From Leptotrichia hofstadii (GTDB lineage: Bacteria > Fusobacteriota > Fusobacteriia > Fusobacteriales > Leptotrichiaceae): a stretch of 64,000 nucleotides of DNA. The notes under the pieces are model-generated. The model had not been told where the DNA came from and did no database searches. It saw only the letters and a program-made list of their open reading frames with translations. A program made the translations under genes and the position numbers. The stretch lies in NCBI RefSeq assembly GCF_007990525.1, contig NZ_AP019823.1, forward strand, positions 1,240,001 through 1,304,000, in the 5' to 3' direction. Within the stretch, counting starts at the first letter, position 1, and each line of letters starts with the position of its first letter. This document shows, in pieces, positions 13,723 to 59,616 of this stretch.

Positions 13723-13751
13723 TTGCATCCAAACTCAAAATATTGTATAAT
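13723..13751 (+). promoter_or_regulatory. Promoter of small lipoprotein cassette, copy 1
   Basis: TTGCAT (13723-13728), 17-base spacer, TATAAT (13746-13751). The same TTGCAT-17-TATAAT pair, with much of the surrounding sequence, recurs at 50530 and 51962. Confidence 0.85.
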
Positions 13752-13843
13752 AAAAATATAAAAAAACACATAAATAGTTAATACATGAAATGGAATGATA
13801 ATTTGATATAGAAAAAAACAATATAAAAGGAGATGATGTATTT

Positions 13844-14020
13844 ATGAAAAAAATAATTATGTTGGTTATATTGGCCATGACATTGTTCAGCTGTGAACTG
13901 CTTGATCCAAGTGCTTGGGAAAGAGCTCATCAAAAAGCAGCTGAAAGAGGAAGAAAATGTTATAGGAATCAATATGGAAATGTATATTGTGAGGATAGAT
14001 ACGGAAATAGGGAATACTAA
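13844..14020 (+). CDS. Tiny Cys-pair lipoprotein, copy 1
   Basis: 58 aa. A perfect ribosome site (AAAGGAG) precedes ATG 13844. The N-terminus MKKIIMLVILAMTLFSC is a lipoprotein signal with lipobox LFSC, giving a 42-residue mature lipoprotein. The C-terminus ERGRKCYRNQYGNVYCED carries two Cys nine residues apart that are conserved in the two homologues at 50648 and 52079, as are ERG, the YGN/NG turn and Y-C-acidic/basic-D. A disulfide outside the cytoplasm is a likely inference. Promoter, leader and terminator hairpin are shared with the other copies, so this is a mobile or duplicated transcription unit. No known family is recognised. Confidence 0.85.
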   Translation: MKKIIMLVILAMTLFSCELLDPSAWERAHQKAAERGRKCYRNQYGNVYCEDRYGNREY

Positions 14021-14066
14021 TGTATACTGCAAAGGTACAAAATAAAAAATAATGAATTTATATTAG

Positions 14067-14118
14067 GAAGGGCAGAGGATTCTCGTTTGGGGAGGATGTA
14101 TCTTGCTCTTTTTATTTT
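14067..14118 (+). terminator. Conserved terminator hairpin of lipoprotein cassette, copy 1
   Basis: AGGGCAGAGG (from 14069) pairs with the CTTGCTCT segment (14102-14109), with an inner CTC/GGG helix, then TTTTTATTTT. The equivalent hairpins of the other two cassettes keep the pairing with different bases, and even the sequence after the T run (TTTTGGTTAAATAATT) is conserved. Confidence 0.8.
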
Positions 14119-14198
14119 GGTTAAATAATTGTATTTTTTAATTAATTTTCTAATTGAAATCAATTCTGTTTTCAATATTAAAAACATTGGTTTGTTGT

Positions 14199-14251: not shown

Positions 14252-14527
14252 ATGGCAAATGCAAATTTAAGTATTAGAGTTGATAAAGAAACAAAAGAAA
14301 AAGCGAATGAATTGTTTAACAAATTTGGCTTGACAATGACAACCGCAGTAAATATGTTCTTAAAAACTGCAATTAGAGAAAATAGAATCCCTTTTGAATT
14401 GAAATTGGAAGAAGAGCCAAATGAAGTAACTTTAGAAGCAATGAGAGAAGCTGATAGAATTGCAAGAGATGATAGTGTAAAGGGATATGACAGCATAGAG
14501 GAGTTGAGAGAGGCACTTGGTGTATAA
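14252..14527 (+). CDS. RelB/DinJ-family antitoxin, unit 1
   Basis: 91 aa. The N-terminus ANANLSIRVDKETKEKANEL is a ribbon-helix-helix DNA-binding module typical of RelB/DinJ antitoxins; FGLTMTTAVNMFLKTAIREN continues the helices. The C-terminal half (EEPNEVTLEAMREADRIARD ... YDSIEELREALGV) is the toxin-wrapping tail. AAAAAAGGAGG precedes ATG by 9 bases. It overlaps the toxin gene by 11 bases (14517-14527), giving coupled translation. The protein is identical to the unit 2 antitoxin. It should neutralise the YafQ-like toxin and repress the promoter at 14199-14228. Confidence 0.93.
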   Translation: MANANLSIRVDKETKEKANELFNKFGLTMTTAVNMFLKTAIRENRIPFELKLEEEPNEVTLEAMREADRIARDDSVKGYDSIEELREALGV

Positions 14528-14792
14528 AATTAAATTTACAGGACAATTCAAGAAAGAATTGAAATTAGCCAAAAAGCAAGGAAAAGATATTAATAAATTA
14601 TTTAAAATCGTTGATATTTTAGCTCAAAAGAAAGTATTAGACATTAAATATAAAGATCATGCATTAATCAGTAATTACAAAGGATTCAGAGAATGCCATA
14701 TTGAACCTGATTGGCTATTAATATACAAATATTATGATGATATTTTAGTGTTATCCTTATCTCGTTTAGGTTCACACTCAGAACTGTTTTAG
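14517..14792 (+). CDS. YafQ-family mRNA interferase toxin, unit 1
   Basis: 91 aa, full length for YafQ/RelE toxins. The C-terminal half shows the YafQ catalytic layout: DHALIS..YKGFRECHIEPDWLLIY and the closing LGSHSELF, corresponding to the His, His, Asp, and His-x-x-x-Phe residues of Escherichia coli YafQ. Known members cleave mRNA on the ribosome. The start GTG at 14517 lies inside the antitoxin gene, so translation depends on antitoxin translation. All key residues are present, so it is probably active. Identical at protein level to unit 2. Confidence 0.93.
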   Translation: MVYKIKFTGQFKKELKLAKKQGKDINKLFKIVDILAQKKVLDIKYKDHALISNYKGFRECHIEPDWLLIYKYYDDILVLSLSRLGSHSELF

Positions 14793-15174: not shown

Positions 15175-15450
15175 ATGGCAAATGCAAATTTAAGTATTAG
15201 AGTTGATAAAGAAACAAAAGAAAAAGCGAATGAATTATTTAACAAATTTGGATTGACAATGACAACCGCAGTAAATATGTTCTTAAAAACTGCAATTAGG
15301 GAAAATAGAATCCCTTTTGAATTGAAATTGGAAGAAGAGCCAAATGAAGTGACTTTAGAAGCAATGAGAGAAGCTGATAGAATTGCAAGAGATGATAGTG
15401 TAAAGGGATATGACAGCATAGAGGAGTTGAGAGAGGCACTTGGTGTATAA
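15175..15450 (+). CDS. RelB/DinJ-family antitoxin, unit 2
   Basis: 91 aa, protein identical to the unit 1 antitoxin; only a few silent changes separate the genes (for example in the codons for ELF and FGL). Same ribosome site, same 11-base overlap with its toxin gene. The near absence of divergence indicates a recent duplication or gene conversion, and means antitoxin 1 and 2 are fully interchangeable. Confidence 0.93.
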   Translation: MANANLSIRVDKETKEKANELFNKFGLTMTTAVNMFLKTAIRENRIPFELKLEEEPNEVTLEAMREADRIARDDSVKGYDSIEELREALGV

Positions 15451-15715
15451 AATTAAATTTACAGGACAATTCAAGAAAGAATTGAAATTAGCCAAAAAGC
15501 AAGGAAAAGATATTAATAAATTATTTAAAATCGTTGATATTTTAGCTCAAAAGAAAGTATTAGACATTAAATATAAAGATCATGCATTAATCAGTAATTA
15601 CAAAGGATTCAGAGAATGCCATATTGAACCTGATTGGCTATTAATATATAAATATTATGATGACATTTTAGTATTATCCTTATCTCGTTTAGGTTCACAC
15701 TCAGAACTGTTTTAG
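15440..15715 (+). CDS. YafQ-family mRNA interferase toxin, unit 2
   Basis: 91 aa, protein identical to unit 1 toxin, with all catalytic His/Asp/Phe positions (CHIEPDW, GSHSELF) intact. Start GTG at 15440 within the antitoxin gene. Two identical intact toxin genes side by side imply doubled dosage rather than a new specificity. Confidence 0.93.
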   Translation: MVYKIKFTGQFKKELKLAKKQGKDINKLFKIVDILAQKKVLDIKYKDHALISNYKGFRECHIEPDWLLIYKYYDDILVLSLSRLGSHSELF

Positions 15716-16099: not shown

Positions 16100-16375
16100 A
16101 TGGCAAATGCAAATTTAAGTATTAGAGTTGATAAAGAAACAAAAGAAAAAGCAAACGAATTATTTAACAAATTTGGCTTGACAATGACAACAGCAGTAAA
16201 TATGTTCTTAAAAACTGCAATTAGGGAAAATAGAATCCCTTTTGAATTGAAATTGGAAGAAGAGCCAAATGAAGTGACAATGAAAGCAATTGAAGAAGGA
16301 AGACGGATTGCAAAAGACGATAGTGTAAAGGGATATGACAGTATAGAGGAGTTGAGAGAGGCACTTGGTGTATAA
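16100..16375 (+). CDS. RelB/DinJ-family antitoxin, unit 3 (diverged tail)
   Basis: 91 aa. Residues 1-60 are identical to units 1 and 2, keeping the ribbon-helix-helix DNA-binding part. The next segment differs: VTMKAIEEGRRIAKDDS instead of VTLEAMREADRIARDDS, then identity returns (VKGYDSIEELREALGV). The changed stretch is where such antitoxins contact their toxin, and toxin 3 is also diverged, so partner co-variation is likely. Overlaps its toxin gene by 11 bases like the others. Confidence 0.93.
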   Translation: MANANLSIRVDKETKEKANELFNKFGLTMTTAVNMFLKTAIRENRIPFELKLEEEPNEVTMKAIEEGRRIAKDDSVKGYDSIEELREALGV

Positions 16376-16640
16376 AGTTAAATTTACAGGACAATTTAAA
16401 AAAGATCTGAAATTAGCGAAAAAACAAGGAAAAAACCTTGATACATTATTTAACGTGATAAAAGTCTTGGAAAAAGGTGAAAAACTTGATGATAAATATA
16501 GAGACCATAGTTTATTTGGAAAATATAAAGGGACAAGAGAATGCCATATTGAGCCTGATTGGTTGTTAGTTTATGAAATAATAGATAATGTGCTGGTACT
16601 TGTATTGTATAGATTAGGTTCACACTCAGAACTGTTTTAA
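16365..16640 (+). CDS. YafQ-family mRNA interferase toxin, unit 3 (diverged)
   Basis: 91 aa. Start GTG 16365. The N- and C-termini match the other copies (YKVKFTGQFKK, GTRECHIEPDWLLVY, LGSHSELF), but the middle is different (KNLDTLFNVIKVLEKGEKLDDKYRDHSLFGKYKG). Catalytic His, Asp, His and Phe are all kept, so activity is expected. Compared with copies 1 and 2 it is the older paralogue. The gene is followed within 50 bases by the promoter of the next gene rather than by an R2 spacer. Confidence 0.92.
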   Translation: MVYKVKFTGQFKKDLKLAKKQGKNLDTLFNVIKVLEKGEKLDDKYRDHSLFGKYKGTRECHIEPDWLLVYEIIDNVLVLVLYRLGSHSELF

Positions 16641-29137: not shown

Positions 29138-31321
29138 ATGAAAAGCAGACTTTCTAAAATTGTAATTCTTGTCTTTCTTGTGACAAATCTAGGAATAGCT
29201 GAATATATAAAAAAAGATAATGCTGTTTACTATAAGGATGAAATATGGCAGGATGATGAGAAAAAGGTAAATGATGCGAATTTTAAAACATTTGTAGAAT
29301 TGAATAAGATTTATGGGAAAGATAATAAAAATGTTTTTTATGGAGACGAAAAACTAGAAAATGCAGATTTTAAAACGTTTCAGGCAGTTGGAGAAAATAC
29401 TGGAAGAGATAAAGACAACTTTTATTGGTATAACCAGAAAGTAAAAATAAATCCAAAAGATTTTAAACTTTATAAAAATAATGATAAAATAAGATATTTT
29501 AGAAATAATGGGAAAATATATGATTTAGAAGGATTAAATGAACTTAATGGAATTGAAGATGTAGATACTTTTGAAGTACTGGATGATGAGTATTCAAGAG
29601 ATAAACATAATATTTATTATGATGGAGTAACTTTGTCTGATGTGGATATGGATACTTTTCAGATAATAATGCGAGATGCTTATGCGAAAGATAAAAACAA
29701 GGTGTATTATGGTTCAAGACCAATAAGGGAAGTGAATCCAAAAACAGTAAAAATTTTAAGTGAAATTTATTTGAAAGATGATAAAAGTGTATTTACAAAA
29801 TATGGGAAAATTGAAAATGCTGATTTGAACAGTTTTGAAGTTTTAGGAGAAATGCATATTTACGCAAAAGATAATAAAAATGTTTATTTATTTGGTGAAA
29901 TAATTAAAAAAGCAGATCCTAGAACTTTTGAAATAATTTCAGAAATAGCTTTTGCAACATATTCAAAAGATAAAGACAAAGTTTATATTTCTGGAATGGA
30001 AATAAAAGGAGCAGATTCAAAAACATTTGAAAAATTAGAAAAATCAACTTTTTATTCAAAAGATAAAAATAACTTGTACTATCAAGAAGTAAAAATTGAT
30101 GAAATTAGAGATAATTTAGAAGACATGAGTGCTGGAGTGCTTGATATTATAAAAAATGGAAACAGAATTTATGCTAATGGAAATAGGCTTGATATAGAAA
30201 ATCCAGAAAATTTTAAAATAATAAAAAATGATTATTACAATAATCCAAATATAATTTATGGGAAAAACAATAAAAATATATATGTAATTATAGGAAATGG
30301 ACAAAAAATTCGTAGTAAAATAATAAAAGATGCGGACATAAATTCTTTTGAAATAATGGAAATTGGTGCATATTCACGAGATAAAAATAATATTTATTTT
30401 ACGTATTCTGATGTTGTGCAAATGAAAGATGTAGATAAAGACAGTTTTACTGTCGGAGAACATGGCTTTTCGTATGATAAAAACAGTGTTTATTTTTATG
30501 GGAAAAAGATAGATGGAATCAGTCCAAAAAGCTTTAAGATTGTTGATTTAGCTGTTAACTCTTGGAAACCTGTAACATTTGCACTATTGACAGACAGTAA
30601 AAATTTATATAAATTTATTTATGAATTTGATCCTGAAACGTATAAATTGAAAAATACAAAATTGGTTACTGTAACGAATGTAAAAGTAGATGCTCCGAGT
30701 TTTGAGATTGTTAAAGAAGACACGGGAAGTTATTATAGGGATAATGACAGCGTTTTTTATTATGATATGAATAAAAAAGAACTTATAAAAGTTGAAGGTG
30801 CAGATAGAAATAGTTTTGCTGAAATGGATAATTTTTTTGCAAAGGATAATAAAAATGTCTATTATCTTGGGAAGCAAATTAGGAATATCAGCTCAGAAGG
30901 GTTTAAATTTGTTGGTCCAGATATTGCAAAAAATAAAAATGGTGTATATTTTTTGAAAGATAAAACTGGAGAAGGAGATTATGAGATAGTACCTTTAAAT
31001 TTTGACAGTGCTTCATTTGATATAGCGAATAAGGATACAAGTAATTATTTTAAAGATAAAAATGGGATTTATTATCTTGATTACGGTAAACTGTTAAATT
31101 CAGAATTAAAGGATGTGCAGAATGCCTTCATTAAACTCGAAGGAGCAGATATTCCAACATTTAAAGCATTTGGATATGGGTATTCCAAAGATAAGAATAG
31201 AGTTTATTGTGGATATAAGGAATTTAAAGGGGTGGATGTGCCAAGTTTTACTGTCGTGCGGGAAGATGAGGGAGTTGTAGTTAAGGATAAAAATAGGACT
31301 TATGAAATTGATTGTGAGTGA
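29138..31321 (+). CDS. DKNYY-repeat secreted protein, copy 1
   Basis: 727 aa. Signal peptide MKSRLSKIVILVFLVTNLGI is cut near AEY. The rest is about twenty degenerate units of ~30-45 residues with the core YSKDKNNVYY.G.KI..AD..SFE, the DKNYY family. Such proteins are exported, repeat-built and of unknown function, common in Fusobacteriota and some Gram-negatives. GGAGGAAG gives the ribosome site. The next gene is a full-length paralogue with almost identical signal peptide and first ~60 residues, so this is a tandem duplication with later divergence. Confidence 0.9.
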   Translation: MKSRLSKIVILVFLVTNLGIAEYIKKDNAVYYKDEIWQDDEKKVNDANFKTFVELNKIYGKDNKNVFYGDEKLENADFKTFQAVGENTGRDKDNFYWYNQKVKINPKDFKLYKNNDKIRYFRNNGKIYDLEGLNELNGIEDVDTFEVLDDEYSRDKHNIYYDGVTLSDVDMDTFQIIMRDAYAKDKNKVYYGSRPIREVNPKTVKILSEIYLKDDKSVFTKYGKIENADLNSFEVLGEMHIYAKDNKNVYLFGEIIKKADPRTFEIISEIAFATYSKDKDKVYISGMEIKGADSKTFEKLEKSTFYSKDKNNLYYQEVKIDEIRDNLEDMSAGVLDIIKNGNRIYANGNRLDIENPENFKIIKNDYYNNPNIIYGKNNKNIYVIIGNGQKIRSKIIKDADINSFEIMEIGAYSRDKNNIYFTYSDVVQMKDVDKDSFTVGEHGFSYDKNSVYFYGKKIDGISPKSFKIVDLAVNSWKPVTFALLTDSKNLYKFIYEFDPETYKLKNTKLVTVTNVKVDAPSFEIVKEDTGSYYRDNDSVFYYDMNKKELIKVEGADRNSFAEMDNFFAKDNKNVYYLGKQIRNISSEGFKFVGPDIAKNKNGVYFLKDKTGEGDYEIVPLNFDSASFDIANKDTSNYFKDKNGIYYLDYGKLLNSELKDVQNAFIKLEGADIPTFKAFGYGYSKDKNRVYCGYKEFKGVDVPSFTVVREDEGVVVKDKNRTYEIDCE

Positions 31322-31484: not shown

Positions 31485-33692
31485 ATGAAAAGCAAACTTT
31501 CTAAAATTGTAATTCTTGTCTTTCTTGTGGCAAATCTAGGAATGGCTGAATATATAAAAAAAGATAATGCTGTTTATTATAAGGATGAAATATGGCAGGC
31601 TGATGAAAAAAAGGTAAATGATGCGGATTTTAAAACATTTGTGAAATTAAATGATATTTATGGAAAAGATGGGAAAAGAGTTTTTTATCTTGATGAGAAG
31701 TTAGATGGTGCTGATGTTCGGTCTTTTCAGGTAATTGGAGAAGTCAGTGGAAAAGATAAAAAATATATTTATAATTATGATGAAAAAATGGAGATAAATC
31801 CGAAAGATTTCAAACTTTATAGAAATAAAGACAAACTTCTGTATTTTAGAAATAATGGTAAACTGTATATTGGAGGAAGTTTTCTTGAAGTTGAATATAT
31901 TCAGGATTTGGACAGTTTTGAGGCAATTGATCAAGGTTATTCAAAGGACAAGTATAATATTTATTATGCTGGAACGCCAATATATGATGTTGATAAAAGT
32001 ACATTTCAGATAATAATGCCTGATTATTACGCAAAAGACAAGAATAATGTGTACCGTGGCTATGATAAAATAAAAGATGCGAATCCTGATACGATAAAAA
32101 TATTAAATGAGGTTTACTTGAAGGATGATAAAAATGTATTTCTGAATTTTGGTCAAAAAATAGAAAATGTCGATGTGGCTGCTTTTCAAGCGATAGAAGG
32201 AAATGTAGCTTATGGAAAAGATAAAAATAATGTCTACTATCTTGGTGAAAAAATAAAAGGAGCTGATGCAAAATCTTTTGAAGTTATTTTAGAGCCTAGC
32301 GATCTTATTCAGATGTATTCAAAAGATAAAAATAGTGTCTTTATAGGAGGACTAAAAATAAAAGAGGCTGATTTGAAAACTTTTGAAAGACTTTCTGGAA
32401 CAACTTATTATTCAAAGGATAAAAATAACTTGTACTATCAAGAAGTGAAAATTGATAAAATTGACAATAAAAATCTTAAAATTTTGTATTCTGATGGAAT
32501 TGACTTGGTAAAAAATGGAAATAAAATTTTTTCAGAAGGGAAAAAATTGAATATAAAAAATCCAAAAACTTTTGAAATAATTTCGAATGAATATAATAGT
32601 GTTCCAAGTTTGATTTATGGAAAAGATGATAAAAATGTATATGCAATTACAAGATTTGATGAAGTTTATTCAAGTAAAATAATAAAAAATGCAGATGTAA
32701 ATTCTTTTGAAATAATGAAAAATAATATGTATACAAAAGATAAAAATAATATTTATTTTACACGAAATGATGTTGTAAAGTTAGAAGGTGCTGATAAAGA
32801 TAGTTTCGTTATTCAAGAAAATGATAATGACTTTTCTTATGATAAAAATAACGTATATTTTATGGGAAAAAAGATAAACGGAATAAATTCTAATGAATTT
32901 AGAATTATAGATTTGAATAACAAAAATGAATCTTTCTATTTCCTGACTGACAATAAAAATTTATATAAATTGATTACTATTTTTGATGAAGATAGTGGTA
33001 AAATTGTAAAAACTAAGTTAGTTATAATAGAAAATCCAAAAGTGGATACTAAAAGTTTTGAAGTGATAAATAAAAACTTTGATACTTATTATAGAGATAA
33101 AAATTCTGTTTATTATTATGATGCGGATTTTGGCAAAGAATTGAAAAAACTGGAAGCAGCTGATAGTAACAGTTTTATAAGTTTGGAAGCAGACTTTGGA
33201 AAAGATGACAGGAATGTTTATTATAACGGAAATAAATTGGAAGGCGTAAATTCTGATGGACTTGAAATTTTAGATGAAAATGCTATAATTTTTAAAAATA
33301 AGGATGGAGTTTATCTTTTAAAAAATGACGAAAAAGTAAAGTATGAGCTTGTATCTTTAAATTTCGATAGTAATTCTTTTAAACCTGTCCATAGACGAAG
33401 TAATTATTTCAAAGATAAGAACGGAATTTATTATCTTGATTTTTTTGATTTAGAATATTTAGATGTAAAGAAAGAAAAAGATATTCAAAGCAAATTTTTC
33501 TTTAAGATAGAAGATGCTGATGTTCCAACATTTAGAGAACTGCTATTTGATTTTGCAAAAGATAAGAACAAGGTTTACTGTAAATATAAAGAAATTAAAG
33601 GTGCTGATGTTCAAAGTTTTTCTGTTGTGTCAGGAGACGAAGGAATTGTAATTAAAGATAAGAATAGAACTTATGAAAATGATTGTGAATAA
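31485..33692 (+). CDS. DKNYY-repeat secreted protein, copy 2
   Basis: 735 aa, paralogue of the preceding gene: signal peptide MKSKLSKIVILVFLVANLGM, then the same EYIKKDNAVYYKDEIWQ opening and repeat core. Unit boundaries correspond along the whole length and the C-termini (KDKNRTYE.DCE) are nearly identical, each ending in a single Cys. AAGGAGTTGGAG precedes ATG. A 163-base gap with no evident terminator separates the copies. Periplasmic or surface location is expected; function unknown. Confidence 0.9.
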   Translation: MKSKLSKIVILVFLVANLGMAEYIKKDNAVYYKDEIWQADEKKVNDADFKTFVKLNDIYGKDGKRVFYLDEKLDGADVRSFQVIGEVSGKDKKYIYNYDEKMEINPKDFKLYRNKDKLLYFRNNGKLYIGGSFLEVEYIQDLDSFEAIDQGYSKDKYNIYYAGTPIYDVDKSTFQIIMPDYYAKDKNNVYRGYDKIKDANPDTIKILNEVYLKDDKNVFLNFGQKIENVDVAAFQAIEGNVAYGKDKNNVYYLGEKIKGADAKSFEVILEPSDLIQMYSKDKNSVFIGGLKIKEADLKTFERLSGTTYYSKDKNNLYYQEVKIDKIDNKNLKILYSDGIDLVKNGNKIFSEGKKLNIKNPKTFEIISNEYNSVPSLIYGKDDKNVYAITRFDEVYSSKIIKNADVNSFEIMKNNMYTKDKNNIYFTRNDVVKLEGADKDSFVIQENDNDFSYDKNNVYFMGKKINGINSNEFRIIDLNNKNESFYFLTDNKNLYKLITIFDEDSGKIVKTKLVIIENPKVDTKSFEVINKNFDTYYRDKNSVYYYDADFGKELKKLEAADSNSFISLEADFGKDDRNVYYNGNKLEGVNSDGLEILDENAIIFKNKDGVYLLKNDEKVKYELVSLNFDSNSFKPVHRRSNYFKDKNGIYYLDFFDLEYLDVKKEKDIQSKFFFKIEDADVPTFRELLFDFAKDKNKVYCKYKEIKGADVQSFSVVSGDEGIVIKDKNRTYENDCE

Positions 33693-39076: not shown

Positions 39077-39136
39077 AGAGTTTTACTTCTTGTTACAAGA
39101 TAAAAAAGTAAAAAGTCGAGAAATAAAATAAAGATA

Positions 39137-39230
39137 AAAACACAGTTCTGGTTGGTAGTCCAGACGCAGTAATGTAAGTAACCTGCCTCCTTAGGTTGTC
39201 CATTCTTTATTATAAATTTTTTAAGGAGGC
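39137..39230 (+). promoter_or_regulatory. yjdF-motif riboswitch
   Basis: Directly precedes a yjdF gene. It contains the stem TCTGG-TTGGTAGT-CCAGA (39147-39164), then ACGCAGTAATGTAAGTAACC, and a 9-bp segment GCCTCCTTA (39185-39193) that is perfectly complementary to the ribosome site TAAGGAGGC (39222-39230). The yjdF RNA class is known to sense azaaromatic compounds and to control translation of yjdF. Here ligand binding could free or mask the ribosome site through that 9-bp stem; direction is inferred. Confidence 0.82.
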
Positions 39231-48789: not shown

Positions 48790-50169
48790 ATGAAAAAAAT
48801 GTGGGAAGGGCGATTTCATAAGGAAACTAACAAATTGTTAGAAAAATTTAATGCGTCCATTACGTTTGATAAAAGAATGTATGAAGAGGATATTGCTGGA
48901 AGTATTGCACACAGCAGAATGCTTGCTAAACAAGGGATTATTTCAGAAAATGAACAAAAAGATATTGAAAATGGGCTGCTTCAGATAAAGGATGAAATTG
49001 AAAAGGGAGAATTTGAGTTTAGAATTGAAGATGAAGATATTCATATGTCGATTGAGAAAAGGCTGACACAGATTATTGGGGCTGTGGCTGGAAAACTGCA
49101 TACTGCCAGAAGCCGAAACGATCAGGTGGCTCTTGACGTACGAATGTATGTACGAAAAGAAGCTCGTAAAATCTCAAATTTGCTTGTAAAAATGGAAAAT
49201 GTACTGCTAGGGCTTGCTGAAAAATATAAAAATGTTATTATTCCTGGATATACTCATTTACAAAGGGCTCAACCGATTTTATTCTCTCATCACCTGATGG
49301 CTTACTTTCAAATGTTTAAAAGGGATATTTCGAGAATTGAGGACTTTCTCAAAAGAAGTGATGAAATGCCACTTGGAGCAGGGGCATTAGCTGGAACTAC
49401 ATTTAATCTTGACAGACATTTTGTGGCAGAAGAACTTGGATTTTCAAAGCCTACGGAAAATAGTCTTGATTCTGTAAGCGACAGGGATTTTATAATTGAG
49501 CTTGCAATGATTATTTCAGTAATTTCAATGCACTTATCAAGATTTTCAGAAGAAATTATTATCTGGTGCACATCCGAATTTTCATTTATAAATCTGGATG
49601 ATGCCTTTGCAACTGGCTCTTCAATTATGCCACAGAAAAAAAATCCCGACATTGCCGAACTTGTAAGAGGGAAAACAGGCAGAATCTACGGAAATCTTAT
49701 GGGAATCTTAACAACAATGAAAGCACTCCCACTAGCTTATAATAAGGATATGCAGGAAGATAAGGAAGGAATTTTTGACTCTATTGACAATATCAAATTA
49801 TCCATCGAAATTTTTTACCTAATGCTTGATACAATAACAGTAAATAATGAAAAAATCTATGCTTCAATGCGAGCAGGATTCCTAAACGCAACAGATGTAG
49901 CCGATTACCTTGCAAAACACAACGTTCCGTTCAGACAGGCACATAAAATCGTTGGAGAAATCGTATCCTACTGCGAAGATAAGAAAATCGCAATTGATGA
50001 CATGAAACTCGAAGAATTTCATAAATTTTCTGATGTTTTCAAAGATGATATTCTTTCAGAAATCACAATTGAAAACTGCGTAAACAAACGAAATTCATTT
50101 GGTGGAACCTCCATAAAAAATGTTGAAATGCAAATTGAAAATGGAAAGAAATTTTTAGAAACTTTATAA
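48790..50169 (+). CDS. argH: Argininosuccinate lyase
   Basis: 459 aa. The fumarase/aspartase superfamily signature GSSIMPQKKNPD with its catalytic Ser loop is at ~279-290, and the start MWEGRFHKETNKLLEKFNAS and LHTARSRNDQVALDVRMY are specific to argininosuccinate lyase. It splits argininosuccinate into arginine and fumarate in the cytosol. No argG or other arginine gene is beside it. AGAAAGGGCTGAG supplies the ribosome site. Repeat R1 copy b begins right after the stop. Confidence 0.95.
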   Translation: MKKMWEGRFHKETNKLLEKFNASITFDKRMYEEDIAGSIAHSRMLAKQGIISENEQKDIENGLLQIKDEIEKGEFEFRIEDEDIHMSIEKRLTQIIGAVAGKLHTARSRNDQVALDVRMYVRKEARKISNLLVKMENVLLGLAEKYKNVIIPGYTHLQRAQPILFSHHLMAYFQMFKRDISRIEDFLKRSDEMPLGAGALAGTTFNLDRHFVAEELGFSKPTENSLDSVSDRDFIIELAMIISVISMHLSRFSEEIIIWCTSEFSFINLDDAFATGSSIMPQKKNPDIAELVRGKTGRIYGNLMGILTTMKALPLAYNKDMQEDKEGIFDSIDNIKLSIEIFYLMLDTITVNNEKIYASMRAGFLNATDVADYLAKHNVPFRQAHKIVGEIVSYCEDKKIAIDDMKLEEFHKFSDVFKDDILSEITIENCVNKRNSFGGTSIKNVEMQIENGKKFLETL

Positions 50170-50179
50170 TATTATCCCC

Positions 50180-50512
50180 ATTTTAAAATGAGAATAAATT
50201 TTTATAATTAGGTTTCATAATCATTCAACTTTTTCTTTTTTATTTTCGTAGGATTGCTCATTGCCGCAAATCCTACAACCTATGGCTAGTCTACGACATT
50301 TTCCTGCACTGACAAAAAACTCGCTATGCTCAGACAGTTTTGCCAGCACAGAAAAATGCTCCGACAGATTAGTTTATCGCAGACTCTGTTTAAAAGATAA
50401 AAATTATATCTTATAATTACTTGAAAATATTAGATTTAGAAAAATTTGTAATAATTTCGTTATTTAAATAGGATTTAGTATCAGGTATAATTTTATTTTC
50501 TATTAAATTTTT
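50180..50512 (+). repeat. Dispersed repeat R1, copy b (core 50241-50366)
   Basis: Fills the stretch from just after argH to the promoter of lipoprotein copy 2. Core TTTTCGTAGGATTGCTCATT, CAAATCCTACAACCTATGGC and TAGTCTACGACATTTTCCTG is nearly identical to copies a and c; homology continues through CTGTTTAAAAGATAAAAATT, TTGAAAATATTAGATTTA and TTTCGTTATTTAAATAGG. Same orientation as the flanking genes. Confidence 0.8.
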
Positions 50513-50529
50513 GGAAGAAATATAATAAA

Positions 50530-50558
50530 TTGCATTTTAACTTAAAATATTGTATAAT
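50530..50558 (+). promoter_or_regulatory. Promoter of small lipoprotein cassette, copy 2
   Basis: TTGCAT (50530-50535), 17 bases, TATAAT (50553-50558), as at 13723 and 51962. Confidence 0.85.
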
Positions 50559-50647
50559 AAAAATATAAAAAGAACACAATTAATTAATACAAAAAATGAA
50601 ATACATATTCAACTTAGATAAGACAATATAAAAGGAGATGAATATTT

Positions 50648-50803
50648 ATGAAAAAGATTATTATGCTAGTTATATTAGCTATGACTGTGTTCAGCTGCAG
50701 TATTATAGATGAATACAATGAAGCTAAACGAGAAGCTTCTGAAAGAGGAAGAGAATGTTACAGAGACCGTTATGGTAATTTTTATTGCGAAGATACAAAA
50801 TAA
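50648..50803 (+). CDS. Tiny Cys-pair lipoprotein, copy 2
   Basis: 51 aa. MKKIIMLVILAMTVFSC (lipobox VFSC) is almost the same as copy 1. Mature part SIIDEYNEAKREASERGREC then YRDRYGNFYCEDTK keeps ERG, the two Cys nine residues apart, YGN and YCED; the C-terminal RYGN extension of copies 1 and 3 is absent. AAAGGAG lies 9 bases before ATG. Conserved promoter and terminator as in the other cassettes. Function unknown. Confidence 0.85.
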   Translation: MKKIIMLVILAMTVFSCSIIDEYNEAKREASERGRECYRDRYGNFYCEDTK

Positions 50804-50825
50804 GAAATGATGAATTTATATAAGA

Positions 50826-50874
50826 AGGGTGAGGCTTCTCGTTCAGGAGAATATATTCTTGCTCTTTTTCTTTT
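50826..50874 (+). terminator. Conserved terminator hairpin of lipoprotein cassette, copy 2
   Basis: AGGGTGAG (50826-50833) pairs with CTTGCTCT (50858-50865), inner TCTC/GGAGA helix, then TTTTCTTTT. Confidence 0.8.
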
Positions 50875-51084
50875 GGTTAAATAATTATAAAATTATATCT
50901 AATTTTTAAATTTTAATAAACTGATTGAGTTTTCATTATTAAACCTTATTCAGAAAATAGAAACTATTTTAAGAACAAGAAGTTTAGATATATAATTCAA
51001 AATTTATTAAATATTCTCTATTTAAATAGTAAATAATAGTAAATAATATTAAAAAAAATTTAAATGAAAGGAAAAATTATTACA

Positions 51085-51558: not shown

Positions 51559-51569
51559 TTTTTTATTGT

Positions 51570-51955
51570 TTATAATAGCTAATTCATAATCATTCAATTA
51601 AATTATTTTTTAGATATTTTGATTAATAAGTATTTTTTCATATTACTATGTTTTTTCTTTTTTATTTTCGTAGGATTGCTCATTGCCACAAATCCTACAA
51701 CCTATGGCTAGTCTACGGCATTTTTCTGCACTGCCAAAAAACTCGCTATGCTCAGACAGTTTTGCCAGCACAGAAAAATGCTTCGACAGGCTATTTATAC
51801 TGAAATCTGTTTGAAAAATGAAAATTATATTTTAATTATTTGAAAATATTAGATTTATGCCCTTTATTAGAAAAGATTGTAATAATTTCGTTATTTAAAT
51901 AGAATTTAGTATTAGATATAATTTTATTTTTTATTAAATTTTTGGAAGAAATATA
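51570..51955 (+). repeat. Dispersed repeat R1, copy c (core 51661-51788)
   Basis: Starts just after the GNAT stop and ends at the promoter of lipoprotein copy 3. Core nearly identical to copy b (GCCACAAATCC for GCCGCAAATCC, CTGCCAAAAA for CTGACAAAAA). Relative to copies a and b it has about 45 extra bases between TCATAATCATTCAA and the core. Same orientation as neighbours. Confidence 0.8.
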
Positions 51956-51961
51956 AAAAAA

Positions 51962-51990
51962 TTGCATTTTAACTTGAAATATTGTATAAT
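51962..51990 (+). promoter_or_regulatory. Promoter of small lipoprotein cassette, copy 3
   Basis: TTGCAT (51962-51967), 17 bases, TATAAT (51985-51990). Confidence 0.85.
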
Positions 51991-52078
51991 TAAAATATAA
52001 AAAGAACACAAATAATTAATACATAAAATGGAATAAATATCTGACATAGATATTTAAAACAGAAGGAGATGATATGCA

Positions 52079-52258
52079 ATGTTTAAGAAAATTTTACTCA
52101 TGATTATACTGACTGTGGCAATTATGGGATGCAGTGCACGTGATATTGCCCTGTGGAAAGAATCAGATCGGAGAGCTGCTGAAAGAGGTGTAAGATGTTT
52201 TAAGAGGGCTAATGGTGATTATTACTGTAAAGACAAGTATGGAAACATAACATACTAG
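52079..52258 (+). CDS. Tiny Cys-pair lipoprotein, copy 3 (diverged)
   Basis: 59 aa. MFKKILLMIILTVAIMGC carries a lipobox IMGC. Mature part SARDIALWKESDRRAAERGV, then RCFKRANGDYYCKDKYGNIT, keeps ERG, the Cys pair nine apart, N-G turn, YYC-x-D and YGN. It is the most divergent of the three, with about half its mature residues changed while the motif is kept, indicating selection. AGAAGGAG precedes ATG; an out-of-frame ATG at 52074 is irrelevant. Confidence 0.85.
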   Translation: MFKKILLMIILTVAIMGCSARDIALWKESDRRAAERGVRCFKRANGDYYCKDKYGNITY

Positions 52259-52323
52259 CCTATATGTGACATAGAAAAGATAAGATGGATGACAATGGTT
52301 TAAAAGCTATGAAATATATACAG

Positions 52324-52374
52324 AGGGCAGGGGCTTCCCATACAGGGGAATGTACTCCTGTCTTTTTTCTTTTG
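52324..52374 (+). terminator. Conserved terminator hairpin of lipoprotein cassette, copy 3
   Basis: AGGGCAGG (52324-52331) pairs with CCTGTCTT (52357-52364), inner CTTCCC/GGGGAA helix, then TTTTCTTTT. Several stem bases differ from copies 1 and 2 on both sides. Confidence 0.8.
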
Positions 52375-52441
52375 GTTAAATAATTATAAAAATAAATCTA
52401 ATTTTTAAATTTTAATAAACTGATAGAGTTTTCATTTGTTT

Positions 52442-52860: not shown

Positions 52861-55800
52861 ATGACAAATAATCTTAAAACTTTACAAAAAGATTTACGTG
52901 CATTTGCAAAAAAAACGAAAAATTTTAAATATACAGATTCTGCATTTATCAAGTTTTTAATAACAGGAATGGTATCAGTTGCAAGCAATGTGTTTTCAGC
53001 AGCACCAGATAAAAGCGTGAAAGATCACAAATTAGAGATTTCATCTTCAATAAAGAATTTGCATCAAAAAGTTAAGGATACAAAACAGAAAAACAGCAAA
53101 TTAATAAAAAACTTAAATCTTGAACTGATTCAATTAATGGAGCAGGGAGACCACGTGACAAAGTCACCTTGGAGCAGCTGGCAGTACGGAGCAAACTATT
53201 TTTACAGCGGCTGGCACACAAACTTTAAAGGAAAAGGGAACAAAACTGGCGATGTTATCTATCAAAGAGACAAAACTTTAAGAAAATATTTAGCAAAACC
53301 AGTAAGCGAAGGCAGTTCAAATGCAACTACGTTAGGATTTGTCTATGAGCCAAATGCGGCAATTCCAATAAACGCCGCAATTACACCAAAATCAATAACA
53401 AAAACTAATCCAAATATTCAAAAGCTTGTGACAATTGCCAGCCTTCCTTCGTTTGAGCCAAGAGTTGTGCAGGAGCCTTCCTCTCCAATCATAAACGTAC
53501 CTAACCCAAGTCAGCCTGCACCATTTAACGTGGTAGCCGTATCTAACGGAAATGACTTTGACAGCGCCTATGACGATGCTCTTCAGAATCAAGGAAACGA
53601 TGACGGAGTCATAGAAGGGGGAGTCGCGATAACAGCGGGGAATTTTAATGTAGAAAGAATTGGAAGAACGTTCAGATATAACTATTCAGGATATTCAGGA
53701 AGAGCAGACAACGGATCTTTGGCTTACAGGGATATATCAGGTTCCAGAGTTTATCTCCCAGCGACAATAGGGACCTGGTCAAATTTAAGCAGACCGTCAA
53801 CGACAACGATTGACAGAAATGGATTTTTAAAAATGGCTGGATACAGAAAAAAGGGAGATGCTACAATGTTATCTGATGCCACTTTTGTGTATTCAAGACG
53901 GGAAGAAAACAGTTCTACTAATTTGGGAGAATTTGCACACTTAGATTTGCACGGCGCTCAGAACATAACGGACCAGACTGCCTGGATTACCGCCTCTTCC
54001 AGCGCGAGCCTTGCAGCCTATAATGATGCAATATCCTATTTAAATTCCGCAAACCCAAACGTAACGGCGGCATCTGATTCACAGACATATATAAACGCTG
54101 GAAAAATAACTATGAAAGGGGGAAATATATCATTAACAAACAGCTATAACCATAATACCGAAGGAAATAAAAGGGCTATAGTGATAAATACTGGCGATGT
54201 TGCTATCGAACCGTTAGAAGATAATGGAATCTTTGGAAAATATAATGCCATATTTGTTGTTTCAAATGATAACTGGACTCCAAATCAGCAGACTTTATAT
54301 AATTCTGGACAAATAGACATCTGGACTCCAAATTCAACTTTTGCCTTAATTGACCCTAACATTACAACAACTGCCGTATCGTCATTATCTTTGGCTTCAG
54401 GTCTAAAACGTCCTGTTGACATTGTAAACAGGTCAAGCTCGGTTAGCGTACATGGTGAAAATTCAACTGGCATCTACTTAAAAAGAAATGTTGATGCCTA
54501 TCTTGACTTTACTGATGGAACAGATATGGCAACTGTTGGAAACGGATGGAATCCTGTAGTTATCTATGGAGATAAGAGTACAGGGCTATTTGTTAATACT
54601 TCCGGAACAACTGTAAAAGGATATTTTGCCGCCGATATTGGGAGCGCTGGGCAAGGAAACAAGGCTTTTAACGGTACAGGAGGACTCGCAAATTATGATA
54701 TAAATAGAACTGACGATGCTAACGCTGGAATAAGCGAAGATTTGTCCAATCCCTCACTAACAGCTGATGATAAAGCCAAAATAGAGGAAAACAATCTTAT
54801 TACAAAATCCACTGGAATTTACACTGTAGCGCCTATTAATTTAACTAAGCATCAAATAAGAATATATGACAAGACAAAAGGAAATGTCGGAATTTATCCT
54901 GATGGAGAAGTAGCCGTTACATTGGGAGCAGGAGACATATTATTAGAAGGCGGTACAAACAACACTGGAATTGCAGTTAAAGTAAAAGGTTCCTCGGTAA
55001 CTTCAGATGGCACGGTAACCCTTTCTAAAGGTAACGCAAATATGGCTATTTACACCGACGGATTATCTGACAGCGGTAAAACTACACAAGTAACCGTAAA
55101 AAATGTAGACACTTCAAATCAAACTGAGAACTCAGTGGGAGTTTATGCCAAAGATGCTTCAGCTGTCGATGTAAAAGAAAAATTTGTCATAAATTCAAAA
55201 GTTACCAGCACAAAAGAAACGGCTATTGCGTCAAAAGCTGGCGGAGGATTAGATAAAAGCACAGAAAATGCTGGAGGTGTCTATGCTGCTGGTGCAGATA
55301 CTAAAGTGAGCCTTGCTTCTGATATTGCAGCAGTCAGTCCGGCTCCAGCTTCAGAATTAGTTAATATAAAAATTACCGGTGCTGAAATAGTGGATTCTAA
55401 AGGAGCAGGAACAGGCGAGTATGCAGGATTTGGGTTATTTGCAGAAAACGGGGCAAAAATTACTACAGCAGGAACTTCGCTTGCAACAGACGGACCAAAA
55501 ATAGAAGTGGAAGGCGGTTCAGTCGCTCTCGCTTCAGTAGGAGCAAATTCAGAAGTGGTAGTCGACAAAGGAACTGTTACTTATGATGGAAAAGGTTATG
55601 CCCTTTATTCAAAAAATAATGGAAAAGTTCATTTAACTGACGGAAAGCTTGTGTTAAAAGGAGAAGCAACTGGATTTTCAGTGGATGCCTCAGTTCCTGC
55701 ATCAGCACAGCCAATAAAACTGACTGGCTCAAAAGTTGACATGCAGTCAGACAACGCAATACTAATGAGCATAAAAAATGCAACTAATTTAAGTACAACA

Positions 55801-58800
55801 GGAATCGCGGCAACGCTGCTAGGGTATTCTGGACTTAATCCATCGGATGTTTCAACTAGCACTGGAAACAATTATTATAAACTTGCAGTTTTAGATGGAG
55901 CAAAAATTAATATTGATGGAACTGGAATTGATAAGTCTGATTCGACTGCAGGCTCAGACAGTGAAGTATTTACAAGAAGGCTGCTTATTCAAAATTCAAT
56001 TTTAAATGTAGATTCAAAAGTTTTGGCTCAATTAAACACAACACAAATTACAGATATTGACAGTAATTTAGCAATTCCAGTCGGATTAGCCGTGAGTGCC
56101 AGCGGAAACTCCCAAAACAGAAGCACAACTGGAGTAAATGTTGCAAATGGCGCTACAATCACTGTAGACAGAACAGATAGTGGAAATGGTGGAGTAGGTG
56201 CGTATGTAAACTACGGAACCATCTCTAATGACGGAAAAATTGAAGTTGAAAAGACAACTCCAAATGATTTTGCAGTAGGACTTTATGCTACAAATGGAAC
56301 ACAAGTGGATAATAAATCTAATGGAACTATTGAAGTTGGTGGTAAAGACAGTATTGGTATTCTTGGACTTTCATATAGAATAGACAGTAAAGGCAATGTT
56401 GTGTATGAAAAATTTGGAACTACTGGTCCATCTTCGCCTATAAACAAATTAGGAACAGTAGATATTACAAATAGTGGTAAAATCACTCTTGATGGAGAAA
56501 ATTCTTTAGGAATTTATGCTAAAAATAACAGTTTAGATGCTGCTGGAACAAATATGGACTACACAAGAATAGGAAATAGCTATACTCAAACTACGAATAA
56601 AGGTGAAATTACAATGTCAGGCAAGAACGCTATTGGTATGATTACTGAAGGTGGATTACTTACAAACGATACAGCAGGTAAGATTACAATAAGTGGACAA
56701 GAAGGCGTTGCAATGTATGGAACTTATGGTGCAATTAATCCTGCTGTTGTAACAGCACAAGGGCTAACAACTGATAGATTAAGTGCAGCTCTTATAAATA
56801 AAGGAACACTTGAACTTGCAGATACAACAGGAGCTGCGCCAATAATCGGTATGTTTACAAATGATGCTGATACAGAAATAGAAACATCAGGAACATTAAA
56901 TATTGGCAAGAAATCTTATGGTATTTATGGAGTTTCAAATAGTGTAGTTATGTCAGGTGGAACAATTAATGTTGGAGAAGACGGAGTAGGTATCTTTGCA
57001 ACAGGTTCATCTGATAAAAAATTAACATCAGGTTCAGATGTAATATTACAAAGTGGAACAATTAATGTCGGAGATAATCAAGCAGTAGGAGTATTTATTG
57101 CAGATGATGCTATAAATCCTTTAAAAACGACAGTTATAAATACAGGAACTAACATGACTGTTGGAACTAATGCATTTGGTTATGTTGTGGATTCTACAAC
57201 AGGAACTGATTTATTGCTTGGTTCAGCGACAAATAAATTAACAGCTTCACTTGGACCAGATTCAGTTTATGCTTATTCAAACGATAAAAATGGATATGTC
57301 TACAGTAATACTGACATCACAACTGCCGGAGGAAAATCGTACGGACTTTACACTGCGGGAAAAACTGAAAATTACGGAAATATTGATTTGACTGGCGGAA
57401 ATGGGAATGTTGGTATTTATTCAACAGGAGCAAATTCAGATGGAACAGGTGCGATTAACCACGGAACAATATTAGTTGGCGGAACTGACCGAATTGCCAA
57501 GGAATATGGTATCGGTATGGCGACAGGATATTATGATGAAAATACCAAGGCTGTTTCAAATGAAGGTGTTATCGAAAATAGAGGAACTATTAATGTAGCA
57601 TCTGACAATTCAATCGGAATGTACGCCGCAGGAAGCGGTTCAAAAGCCATAAACTATGATGTAATTAACATTTCTGGTAAAAATGCTACTGGTATGTACA
57701 TTGATCGTGGAGCTGAAGGTATTAACTACGGAACTATCAAATCTACGGGAACTGCCTCAGGAATTAAAGGGGTTGCAACAGTAAATGGCGGATATATTAA
57801 AAACTATGGAACAATTTTGATTACTTCTCCAGGAGGTATAGGAATATATCAGGATGCCGACTCGGCGCTGGCTGCCCAAAATGAGCCAAGAGCGACAGGA
57901 GTCAATCCGCTGATATTGGCTAATCAGACAGGAACAGTCCATGGAACAAGAGCTGATGTATATTCTGCAACTTCCACAGAAGAAAAATACATAATATCGC
58001 CAAAAGGGAACCTGCTTATTCAAAATCCTCCAAGAGAGCCTAGATTGACAATCAACGGAAGAGAAGTTGCGCTTACAGGAATAGATACAAATATTGCAAG
58101 TCCATCACCAGCATTTGTAACTGCTGGATCAACAATTCTGGATCTTTCATTGCCGCAATATTTAAATCTAGTTTCAAAGGCAGAAGTAAATGAAATCGGA
58201 ATGTATGTGGATACTTCCGGAGTAAACTACACAAATCCTATTCAAGGATTAGATAATCTGATTGGACTTGAGGATATAAACCTTATTATTGGTACGGAAG
58301 CGGCAAAATACACTAACACAAAAGCAATTGAAATTGGTGAAAATATTTTACATCCTTACAATGAAGCTATTTCTTCGTTAACTTCATCAGGAACAACGTT
58401 AAATATTAATTCTGCCGGACTGACTTGGCTTGCGCAGCCTGTAAAGGGGACAACAAGACCAATCGAAACTTTGTATATGGTAAAAATTCCTTATACTTTC
58501 TTTACGAGCGAAAAAGATGAAAATACATATAATTTCCTTGATGGTCTGGAGCAGAGATACGGTGTTGAGGCTCTTGGTTCGAGAGAAAGACTGATTTTTG
58601 ACAAGCTTAACGATCTTGGTAAGGGGGAAACTCAGATTTTTACACAGTCTGTGGATGAAATGAAGGGGCATCAGTATGCAAATCTTCAGCAAAGAATTAA
58701 CGCAACTGGAAATACTTTGGATAAAGAGTTCAGATATCTAAGGGATGAGTGGAGAAACCCTTCTAAGCAGAACAACAAGATAAAAGTGTTTGGTGCAAGA

Positions 58801-59616
58801 GATGAATATAGCACAGACACAGTTGGAATAATTAACTATAGAAGCAATGCTTATGGTGTAGCCTATGTTCATGAAGATGAAAAAGTTAAAATGGGCAACT
58901 CAATCGGATGGTACGCAGGAGCCGTAACAAACAGATTCAAATTTAAAGATATTGGTAAATCAAGAGAAGAGCAGACAATACTTAAAATAGGAGCATTTAA
59001 AACAATGTCGCCCAAAAAGGATCATAACGGAGCATTGCAATGGACAGTTTCAGGAGATGTATTTGCTGGAGTCAATAGCATGAAACGTAGATTTTGGGTA
59101 GTAGACGATACTTTTGAAGCGAAATCTTCTTACAATTCTTACGGAGCTGCCCTTAAAAATGAGATTGGCTACGATATAAGAATGAGCGAAAAAACACATT
59201 TACGTCCATACGGATATGTAAAAATGGAATATGGTAAATTTAATAATATAAAAGAGAAATCAGGACAAATGAGACTGCAAGTAAAAGGAAACGACTACTT
59301 CTCAGTCAAGCCTGAAGTTGGAATGGAGTTCAAATATGTCCAGCCAATGGCGGTAAGAACAAATTTATCAGTAGGGCTGACAGCGGCTTACGAAAACGAA
59401 ATTGGAAAACTTCAGGAAAGAAATCAGGCGAGAGTAGGACATACAACTGCTGGATGGTATAACTTGGAGAAAGAAAAGGAAGATAGACGCGGAAACGGCA
59501 AGTTTGACCTAAACATTGGAGTTGATAACACAAGATTTGGAGTTACTGTAAATGCCGGATATGACACAAAAGGCAACAATGTAAGAGGTGGAATAGGATT
59601 TAGGGCTATTTACTAA
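52861..59616 (+). CDS. Second giant type V autotransporter
   Basis: 2251 aa. Same architecture as the 3282-9236 protein: basic pre-segment (TNNLKTLQKDLRAFAKKTKN), hydrophobic signal 28-47 ending VFSA-A, the shared LMEQGDHVTKSPWSSWQYGA block near 95-115, a proline-rich stretch (PSSPIINVPNPSQPAPFN, ~205-225), a long Gly/Asn/Thr-rich beta-helical passenger to ~1930, and a ~290-residue barrel ending GIGFRAIY. The helix linker GHQYANLQQRIN and barrel are highly similar between the two proteins, the passengers much less so. Surface display is expected; role unknown. ATG follows AAAAAGGAG. Confidence 0.93.
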   Translation: MTNNLKTLQKDLRAFAKKTKNFKYTDSAFIKFLITGMVSVASNVFSAAPDKSVKDHKLEISSSIKNLHQKVKDTKQKNSKLIKNLNLELIQLMEQGDHVTKSPWSSWQYGANYFYSGWHTNFKGKGNKTGDVIYQRDKTLRKYLAKPVSEGSSNATTLGFVYEPNAAIPINAAITPKSITKTNPNIQKLVTIASLPSFEPRVVQEPSSPIINVPNPSQPAPFNVVAVSNGNDFDSAYDDALQNQGNDDGVIEGGVAITAGNFNVERIGRTFRYNYSGYSGRADNGSLAYRDISGSRVYLPATIGTWSNLSRPSTTTIDRNGFLKMAGYRKKGDATMLSDATFVYSRREENSSTNLGEFAHLDLHGAQNITDQTAWITASSSASLAAYNDAISYLNSANPNVTAASDSQTYINAGKITMKGGNISLTNSYNHNTEGNKRAIVINTGDVAIEPLEDNGIFGKYNAIFVVSNDNWTPNQQTLYNSGQIDIWTPNSTFALIDPNITTTAVSSLSLASGLKRPVDIVNRSSSVSVHGENSTGIYLKRNVDAYLDFTDGTDMATVGNGWNPVVIYGDKSTGLFVNTSGTTVKGYFAADIGSAGQGNKAFNGTGGLANYDINRTDDANAGISEDLSNPSLTADDKAKIEENNLITKSTGIYTVAPINLTKHQIRIYDKTKGNVGIYPDGEVAVTLGAGDILLEGGTNNTGIAVKVKGSSVTSDGTVTLSKGNANMAIYTDGLSDSGKTTQVTVKNVDTSNQTENSVGVYAKDASAVDVKEKFVINSKVTSTKETAIASKAGGGLDKSTENAGGVYAAGADTKVSLASDIAAVSPAPASELVNIKITGAEIVDSKGAGTGEYAGFGLFAENGAKITTAGTSLATDGPKIEVEGGSVALASVGANSEVVVDKGTVTYDGKGYALYSKNNGKVHLTDGKLVLKGEATGFSVDASVPASAQPIKLTGSKVDMQSDNAILMSIKNATNLSTTGIAATLLGYSGLNPSDVSTSTGNNYYKLAVLDGAKINIDGTGIDKSDSTAGSDSEVFTRRLLIQNSILNVDSKVLAQLNTTQITDIDSNLAIPVGLAVSASGNSQNRSTTGVNVANGATITVDRTDSGNGGVGAYVNYGTISNDGKIEVEKTTPNDFAVGLYATNGTQVDNKSNGTIEVGGKDSIGILGLSYRIDSKGNVVYEKFGTTGPSSPINKLGTVDITNSGKITLDGENSLGIYAKNNSLDAAGTNMDYTRIGNSYTQTTNKGEITMSGKNAIGMITEGGLLTNDTAGKITISGQEGVAMYGTYGAINPAVVTAQGLTTDRLSAALINKGTLELADTTGAAPIIGMFTNDADTEIETSGTLNIGKKSYGIYGVSNSVVMSGGTINVGEDGVGIFATGSSDKKLTSGSDVILQSGTINVGDNQAVGVFIADDAINPLKTTVINTGTNMTVGTNAFGYVVDSTTGTDLLLGSATNKLTASLGPDSVYAYSNDKNGYVYSNTDITTAGGKSYGLYTAGKTENYGNIDLTGGNGNVGIYSTGANSDGTGAINHGTILVGGTDRIAKEYGIGMATGYYDENTKAVSNEGVIENRGTINVASDNSIGMYAAGSGSKAINYDVINISGKNATGMYIDRGAEGINYGTIKSTGTASGIKGVATVNGGYIKNYGTILITSPGGIGIYQDADSALAAQNEPRATGVNPLILANQTGTVHGTRADVYSATSTEEKYIISPKGNLLIQNPPREPRLTINGREVALTGIDTNIASPSPAFVTAGSTILDLSLPQYLNLVSKAEVNEIGMYVDTSGVNYTNPIQGLDNLIGLEDINLIIGTEAAKYTNTKAIEIGENILHPYNEAISSLTSSGTTLNINSAGLTWLAQPVKGTTRPIETLYMVKIPYTFFTSEKDENTYNFLDGLEQRYGVEALGSRERLIFDKLNDLGKGETQIFTQSVDEMKGHQYANLQQRINATGNTLDKEFRYLRDEWRNPSKQNNKIKVFGARDEYSTDTVGIINYRSNAYGVAYVHEDEKVKMGNSIGWYAGAVTNRFKFKDIGKSREEQTILKIGAFKTMSPKKDHNGALQWTVSGDVFAGVNSMKRRFWVVDDTFEAKSSYNSYGAALKNEIGYDIRMSEKTHLRPYGYVKMEYGKFNNIKEKSGQMRLQVKGNDYFSVKPEVGMEFKYVQPMAVRTNLSVGLTAAYENEIGKLQERNQARVGHTTAGWYNLEKEKEDRRGNGKFDLNIGVDNTRFGVTVNAGYDTKGNNVRGGIGFRAIY

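Follow-up and report, generated by a model that had tools for sequence, protein, structure and literature searches.

Three very small lipoprotein genes of Leptotrichia hofstadii were confirmed as real. They are members of a hitherto undescribed family of membrane-anchored mini-proteins centred on Leptotrichia; the family counts about 30 members per genome in some Leptotrichia. The family is very probably a lineage-specific, multi-copy group of tiny lipoproteins in which an acylated cysteine is followed by a helix and a Cys-pair hairpin, and which varies by tandem duplication, loss and module exchange. The three genes lie in a 64 kb stretch of the 2.6 Mb genome (positions 1240001-1304000, G000:C1), hereafter called the window.

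Lipoprotein cassettes in the window

Direct reading of the sequence bore out the preliminary description of three cassettes, each consisting of a TTGCAT-17-TATAAT promoter, a leader, a lipoprotein ORF and a terminator (Table 1). The leaders are A+T-rich, 88-92 bases long and carry the Shine-Dalgarno sequence AAGGAGATG, and the terminator hairpin is trailed in all three cassettes by TTTTTnTTTTGGTTAAATAATTRTA. Over 13 cassettes, the class-A terminator forms a stem in which five pairs show compensatory changes. Folding of the leader alignment yielded zero pairs and no Rfam match was obtained at the cassettes, on which grounds a riboswitch or structured leader was rejected. The lipoboxes of copies 1, 2 and 3 are FSC, FSC and MGC, respectively, and the conserved motif reads (A/S)ERGxxC. 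The spacing of the cysteine pair, initially given as C-x8-C, had to be corrected to C-x9-C in the three window copies.

Table 1. Positions of the cassette elements in the window, with the evidence for each.
Feature	Position	Strand	Evidence
Cassette 1 promoter, TTGCAT-17-TATAAT	13723..13751	+	Sequence; kept in class-A cassettes
Cassette 1 leader, A+T-rich, with ribosome-binding site	13752..13843	+	Alignment folds to 0 consensus pairs
Copy 1, 58-aa lipoprotein, MKKIIMLVILAMTLFSC-ELLDPSAWERAHQKAAERGRKC-YRNQYGNVY-C-EDRYGNREY	13844..14020	+	
Cassette 1 intrinsic terminator	14066..14118	+	Consensus stem, 5 compensatory pairs over 13 cassettes
Cassette 2 promoter	50530..50558	+	Sequence; class-A comparison
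Cassette 2 leader	50559..50647	+	Sequence; leader alignment without consensus pairs
Copy 2, 51-aa lipoprotein, ...FSC-SIIDEYNEAKREASERGREC-YRDRYGNFY-C-EDTK	50648..50803	+	
Cassette 2 intrinsic terminator	50824..50876	+	Consensus stem over 13 cassettes
Cassette 3 promoter	51962..51990	+	Sequence; class-A comparison
Cassette 3 leader	51991..52078	+	Sequence; leader alignment without consensus pairs
Copy 3, 59-aa lipoprotein, ...MGC-SARDIALWKESDRRAAERGVRC-FKRANGDYY-C-KDKYGNITY	52079..52258	+	AlphaFold: predicted helix 2-35, strands 39-42 and 48-51
Cassette 3 intrinsic terminator	52322..52376	+	Consensus stem over 13 cassettes

Family size and distribution

Three copies proved to be a considerable undercount, as a profile built from 17 sequences retrieved approximately 31 full-length members from the genome at 1e-16 or better, making the family ten times larger than first seen. 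A DNA search located the promoter and leader of cassette 2 at some eight additional sites in the genome; relatives are encoded at the sites examined. The view of the genes as self-contained cassettes held for about a dozen of the roughly 31 copies, which share the promoter, leader and terminator set, and failed for the rest, which stand in tandem pairs or behind different, unrelated promoters. The family is not a chance product, since the profile scored 1e-16 to 1e-32 per genome and found zero matches in 3,803 shuffled and 3,803 reversed short ORFs.

The profile search over the Fusobacteriota proposed in the preliminary description covered 98 genomes of the phylum and placed the centre of the family in Leptotrichia. 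At a permissive limit, genomes of the genus gave between 1 and 41 matches each; four Leptotrichia genomes have many strong members, several have few, and the remainder show weak members or none. Beyond Leptotrichia, one or a few members were found in three other genomes of the Leptotrichiaceae (G029, G022 and G017), in one of which a match contained several stops, and the other families of the phylum held no convincing member in these 98 genomes. A tighter, six-sequence profile run on the contigs matched in Leptotrichia only. In oral taxon 879 (G011), family genes are arranged in tandem, one array having at least 22 members and another at least 10, each about 200 bases apart. The contig with the larger array (G011:C13:1-7074) consists mostly of family genes, and the array extends to the contig end and is therefore probably longer.

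Larger variants with more cysteines also exist. The apparent stops in some matches (e.g. 2177757 and 584237) are the gene's own stop falling inside the longer profile and do not mark pseudogenes; copies 1903435 and 954320 have internal stops with the shorter model. The searches run on phage, plasmid and IMG/VR viral collections found no relatives, and the idea of a mobile cassette carried by phages or plasmids was rejected on these grounds.

Coding evidence and selection

The lipid-bearing cysteine and both C-terminal cysteines are invariant in all 74 aligned members. Among the dispersed copies, dN/dS amounted to 0.14-0.25 for the signal peptide, 0.24-0.52 for the helix and 0.37-0.56 for the hairpin, and the hairpin of the array subfamily reached as little as approximately 0.1. 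The sole exception to these low values was the tail of the array genes (0.5-1.4), which comprises only a few codons. Low dN/dS over most modules and the three invariant cysteines together support the members being coding genes. A ratio near one across copies, which the preliminary description had named as speaking against the family, was thus not found in any module outside the arrays (0.14-0.56), and sustained positive selection is unsupported on average, the average dN/dS being below one.

Protein anatomy and predicted fold

The proteins display the N-terminal positive charge, the hydrophobic stretch and the lipobox ending in Cys that are expected of lipoproteins, with VVGC, VASC, TVSC and VVSC as the commonest lipoboxes among the 84 members scored. 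At position +2 the members have S, E, T, G or A but in no case D; provided that the E. coli rule holds, this would allow sorting to the outer membrane. We infer a surface or periplasmic location. After lipobox cleavage, the mature proteins are mostly 31-42 aa long: the acylated Cys leads into a charged helix, about 20 residues in length (range 14-22), which is followed by a C-terminal Cys-pair segment with the consensus C-Y-x-x-x-[NSD]-G-x-x-Y-C-x-D and a short tail.

AlphaFold models of two members from different subfamilies both predicted a helix and a beta-hairpin with opposed cysteines, namely Cys 40 and 50 on strands 39-42 and 48-51 in a dispersed member (pLDDT 83.5), and Cys 38 and 49 on strands 36-40 and 46-51 in an array member (pLDDT 85.7). 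Independently of the models, the spacing of the cysteines co-varies with the turn glycine, so that the pair stays opposed: spacings of 8, 9 and 10 go with Gly at +5 (4/4), +6 (47/49) and +6 (30/31), respectively. The models and this covariation point to a Cys-clamped hairpin. An actual disulfide is less certain than the clamp and is not assured, since no gene for DsbA, Thioredoxin_4, DsbB or an above-cut-off VKOR was found in the genome; a sub-threshold VKOR candidate (G000:C1:697879) was discarded, its sequence reading as an ABC-transporter permease. Exported proteins of the genome mostly contain no cysteine or an even number, which lends a disulfide weak support. Foldseek returned nothing significant (best E 1.5 in the PDB and 0.34 in a viral library), and matches to WW-domain structures were dismissed as generic small sheets.

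Comparison with known families

No Pfam, NCBIfam, PHROG, PADLOC or PDB family matched the mature part above its cut-off. PADLOC models gave no match to the family, PHROG gave only weak matches of unknown function (best 2e-4, for single members), and no such family was found in the literature on Leptotrichia or Fusobacteria. The proposal that these tiny Cys-pair lipoproteins form an unrecognised family accordingly stands, the match to a described family that would have told against it being absent for the mature part.

Entry-exclusion lipoproteins of the EexN family (NCBIfam NF033894) are similarly short and have a Cys pair behind the lipid anchor, and some members of the Leptotrichia family gave weak matches to this profile, the best with 23 bits and an E of 5e-5. 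That the Leptotrichia proteins are EexN lipoproteins is nevertheless extremely unlikely, and membership was rejected: the 33-bit cut-off was not reached, mature-only sequences gave no NF033894 match at all, so that the similarity stems from the signal peptide, and the genes lie among housekeeping neighbours outside conjugative modules, with no conjugation genes or transfer region nearby. Moreover, the true EexN-domain proteins of these genomes are approximately 211 aa long and have a different charged Cys segment. Chromosomal lipoproteins of this latter kind, whose N-terminal domain is EexN-like and passes the NCBIfam cut-off, occur near 1749849 and 1751122 (G000:C1), in tandem with a paralogue without that domain and in a neighbourhood common to many Leptotrichia.

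LptM, YgdI-YgdR and entericidin are likewise very small outer-membrane lipoproteins, but they matched only at E 0.008-0.3, at the signal-peptide end where the match was located, and occur in single or few copies; we know of no opposed Cys hairpin in these proteins. An Ibs-like type I toxin, which would be a short transmembrane peptide lacking a lipobox, was rejected, as the members have a lipobox and a long polar mature part, and the single Ibs match had an E of 0.039. The multigene variable lipoproteins of spirochaetes and mycoplasmas combine lineage-specific expansion with a constant signal peptide and a variable mature part. In comparison, the Leptotrichia lipoproteins are far smaller, have one Cys-closed hairpin, and are encoded at dispersed sites of a fusobacterial chromosome.

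The phage lipoprotein Rtp45 (about 6 kDa) excludes phage adsorption, and cryo-EM revealed its Cys30-Cys38 disulfide and a beta-hairpin placed in the LptD lumen (PMC12685063). Superinfection-exclusion lipoproteins of this type bind an outer-membrane receptor at its periplasmic face, by which adsorption is blocked. The Leptotrichia proteins resemble Rtp45 and Llp (phages Rtp and T5) in being lipoproteins of about 6 kDa with a Cys pair and, by prediction, a beta-hairpin, and are proposed to reside on the same side of the outer membrane. In contrast to these phage-encoded single genes, however, the family is chromosomal, present in up to tens of copies and module-shuffled, without relatives among the phages, plasmids and IMG/VR contigs searched, and neither a sequence match nor a significant fold match to Rtp45 or Llp was obtained. 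Membership is not claimed, because sequence and phage origin disagree and the binding of a target is putative; working like Rtp45 would be an analogy.

Module shuffling, gain and loss

At orthologous loci, the flanks, leader and terminator are 80-98% identical, whereas the mature helix and hairpin usually reach only 58-79%. The pepF locus compared with that of L. hongkongensis illustrates this: pepF (94%), the leader (95%), the 3'UTR (93%) and the tail (100%) are nearly unchanged, while the lipoprotein is 86% identical in the signal peptide, 62% in the helix and 58% in the hairpin. At the argH locus, the helix of copy 2 shows the same contrast against L. hongkongensis (63%), the contrast against G009 is mild (helix 89%, hairpin 73%), and copy 3 differs throughout, signal peptide included. 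Similarity between modules is weakly correlated (r 0.21-0.29 for 51 dispersed members), and of 53 pairs sharing one module at 92% nucleotide identity or more, just two had all modules at 85% or more; genes with signal peptides 57% alike can even carry identical hairpins. The simplest explanation of this module sharing would be gene conversion between copies, and the family is very probably a recombination-shuffled repertoire in which helix, hairpin and tail are exchanged while signal peptide, leader and terminator stay constant.

The interval between argH and the GNAT gene contains a family gene in the L. hofstadii genome, G007 and G009, a degraded copy in G011 and none in G001, G002, G003, G004, G008 and G010 (intervals partly read), a pattern which indicates gain or loss of copies at fixed positions.

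Genomic neighbourhood

The neighbours of the family genes include pepF, argH, a GNAT acetyltransferase and an autotransporter, and elsewhere a miscellany of housekeeping genes. The suggested check for conserved neighbours was run on loci of seven genomes and found none; the loci examined lack a recurring partner of the toxin, immunity, secretion or conjugation type, and a toxin/immunity or secretion partner was consequently rejected.

Directly downstream of cassette 1, three tandem RelB-like antitoxin/YafQ toxin pairs were observed (14252-14792, 15175-15715 and 16100-16640, + strand), of which the first two encode identical proteins and the third different ones. They are an ordinary toxin-antitoxin cluster, separate from the lipoprotein family. 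Upstream of cassettes 2 and 3 lies a dispersed intergenic repeat of 330-360 bases (50163-50500 and 51566-51930), many copies of which are spread over Leptotrichia, also where family genes are few or absent. Its core of about 130 bases has 24 long copies in the genome; eight of these fall within 500 bases of a family gene, compared to an expected 0.3 or so if copies were uniformly spread and roughly 1-2 if they were confined to intergenic DNA. Elsewhere in the window, an azaaromatic (yjdF) riboswitch aptamer (39124-39219, + strand, E 7e-18) overlaps with the beginning of an ORF of 152 aa (listed from 39196), and two paralogues in tandem, 727 and 735 aa long (29138-31321 and 31485-33692, + strand), are exported proteins with YxKDKNxVYY-type repeats and two Cys each.

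Possible functions

The tiny size, lipid anchor, Cys-pair hairpin, +2 residues, many variants and module exchange suggest a repertoire that binds other envelope proteins. Rtp45 being the best documented protein found of such a build, we tentatively propose, by analogy, that the hairpin lipoproteins may dock on outer-membrane beta-barrels with an exclusion effect, a reading that is possible but short of probable. A docked lipoprotein would alter or block the use of the barrel by phages, bacteriocins or conjugation/contact machinery, as Rtp45 and Llp do, and the many shuffled variants could then serve as a set suited to various barrels or attackers. A more specific version, in which chromosomal, recombination-shuffled, Cys-clamped hairpins would guard outer-membrane channels and provide an exclusion immunity diversified by swapping peptide modules of 30-60 bases among dozens of mini-genes, is decidedly speculative and improbable.

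Other explanations were weighed against beta-barrel docking. Some bacteriocins have lipoprotein immunity proteins, and the family could be an orphan immunity repertoire that neutralises periplasm- or membrane-active toxins or bacteriocins of neighbouring strains, with the arrays as orphan immunity collections. Such repertoires would be expected to show module shuffling and tandem arrays like those of one relative, with more than 20 variants, but the idea appears unlikely: at the loci examined in L. hofstadii and six further genomes, the neighbours are housekeeping or unrelated genes, among which a cognate toxin or secretion gene does not recur. Rather unlikely, too, are variable surface antigens or host/partner-binding ligands, that is, outward-facing lipid-anchored hairpins shuffled for adhesion or evasion of recognition. 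Outer-membrane lipoproteins of host-associated bacteria often form multigene variable families, the mature module is exchanged while signal peptide and tail remain constant, and copy 3 adjoins a large autotransporter (52861-59616). Against this reading stand a mature part of just 31-42 aa under purifying selection on average, the strong conservation of the array-subfamily hairpin (dN/dS about 0.1), and the scattering of copies among housekeeping genes; neither a silent-cassette nor an invertible switch was seen.

An envelope thiol/redox or metal role, in which the Cys pair would work as a dithiol in the reduced state, be it as oxidant sink, sensor or metal site, instead of as a structural disulfide, would agree with the failure to find an oxidative Dsb or VKOR system and with one locus in L. 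hofstadii and L. hongkongensis that, by eye, adjoins genes for a two-component regulator and for TlpA-like thioredoxin-, CcdA-like and MsrA-like proteins. Such neighbours were seen at only one of about 30 loci, however, the cysteines are directly opposed in the hairpin as in a structural clamp, and module shuffling and species-to-species swaps would be left unexplained, which makes this role quite unlikely. Very unlikely, finally, is a selfish or neutral small-gene family that spreads by local duplication with dispersed intergenic repeats and has little organismal function: although a third of the repeat cores (8/24) lie less than 500 bases from family genes, some copies are truncated or have internal stops, and several species have few or no members, dN/dS is well below one, the cysteines are invariant, the terminator is conserved with compensatory changes, and genomes that are poor in family genes or devoid of them have the repeat as well.

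Significance

These genes are small enough for annotation to miss, yet some Leptotrichia have about 30 copies, which amounts to a paralogous family of considerable size. Should the hairpins contain disulfides, the question arises how this is achieved in a bacterium without a recognisable DsbA, DsbB or VKOR. The swapping of mature parts between loci, with signals and regulatory DNA kept constant, is an unusual route to diversity for proteins of 40 residues, and the family offers candidates for outer-membrane guarding or immunity that can be tested directly, in a phylum that has been little studied.
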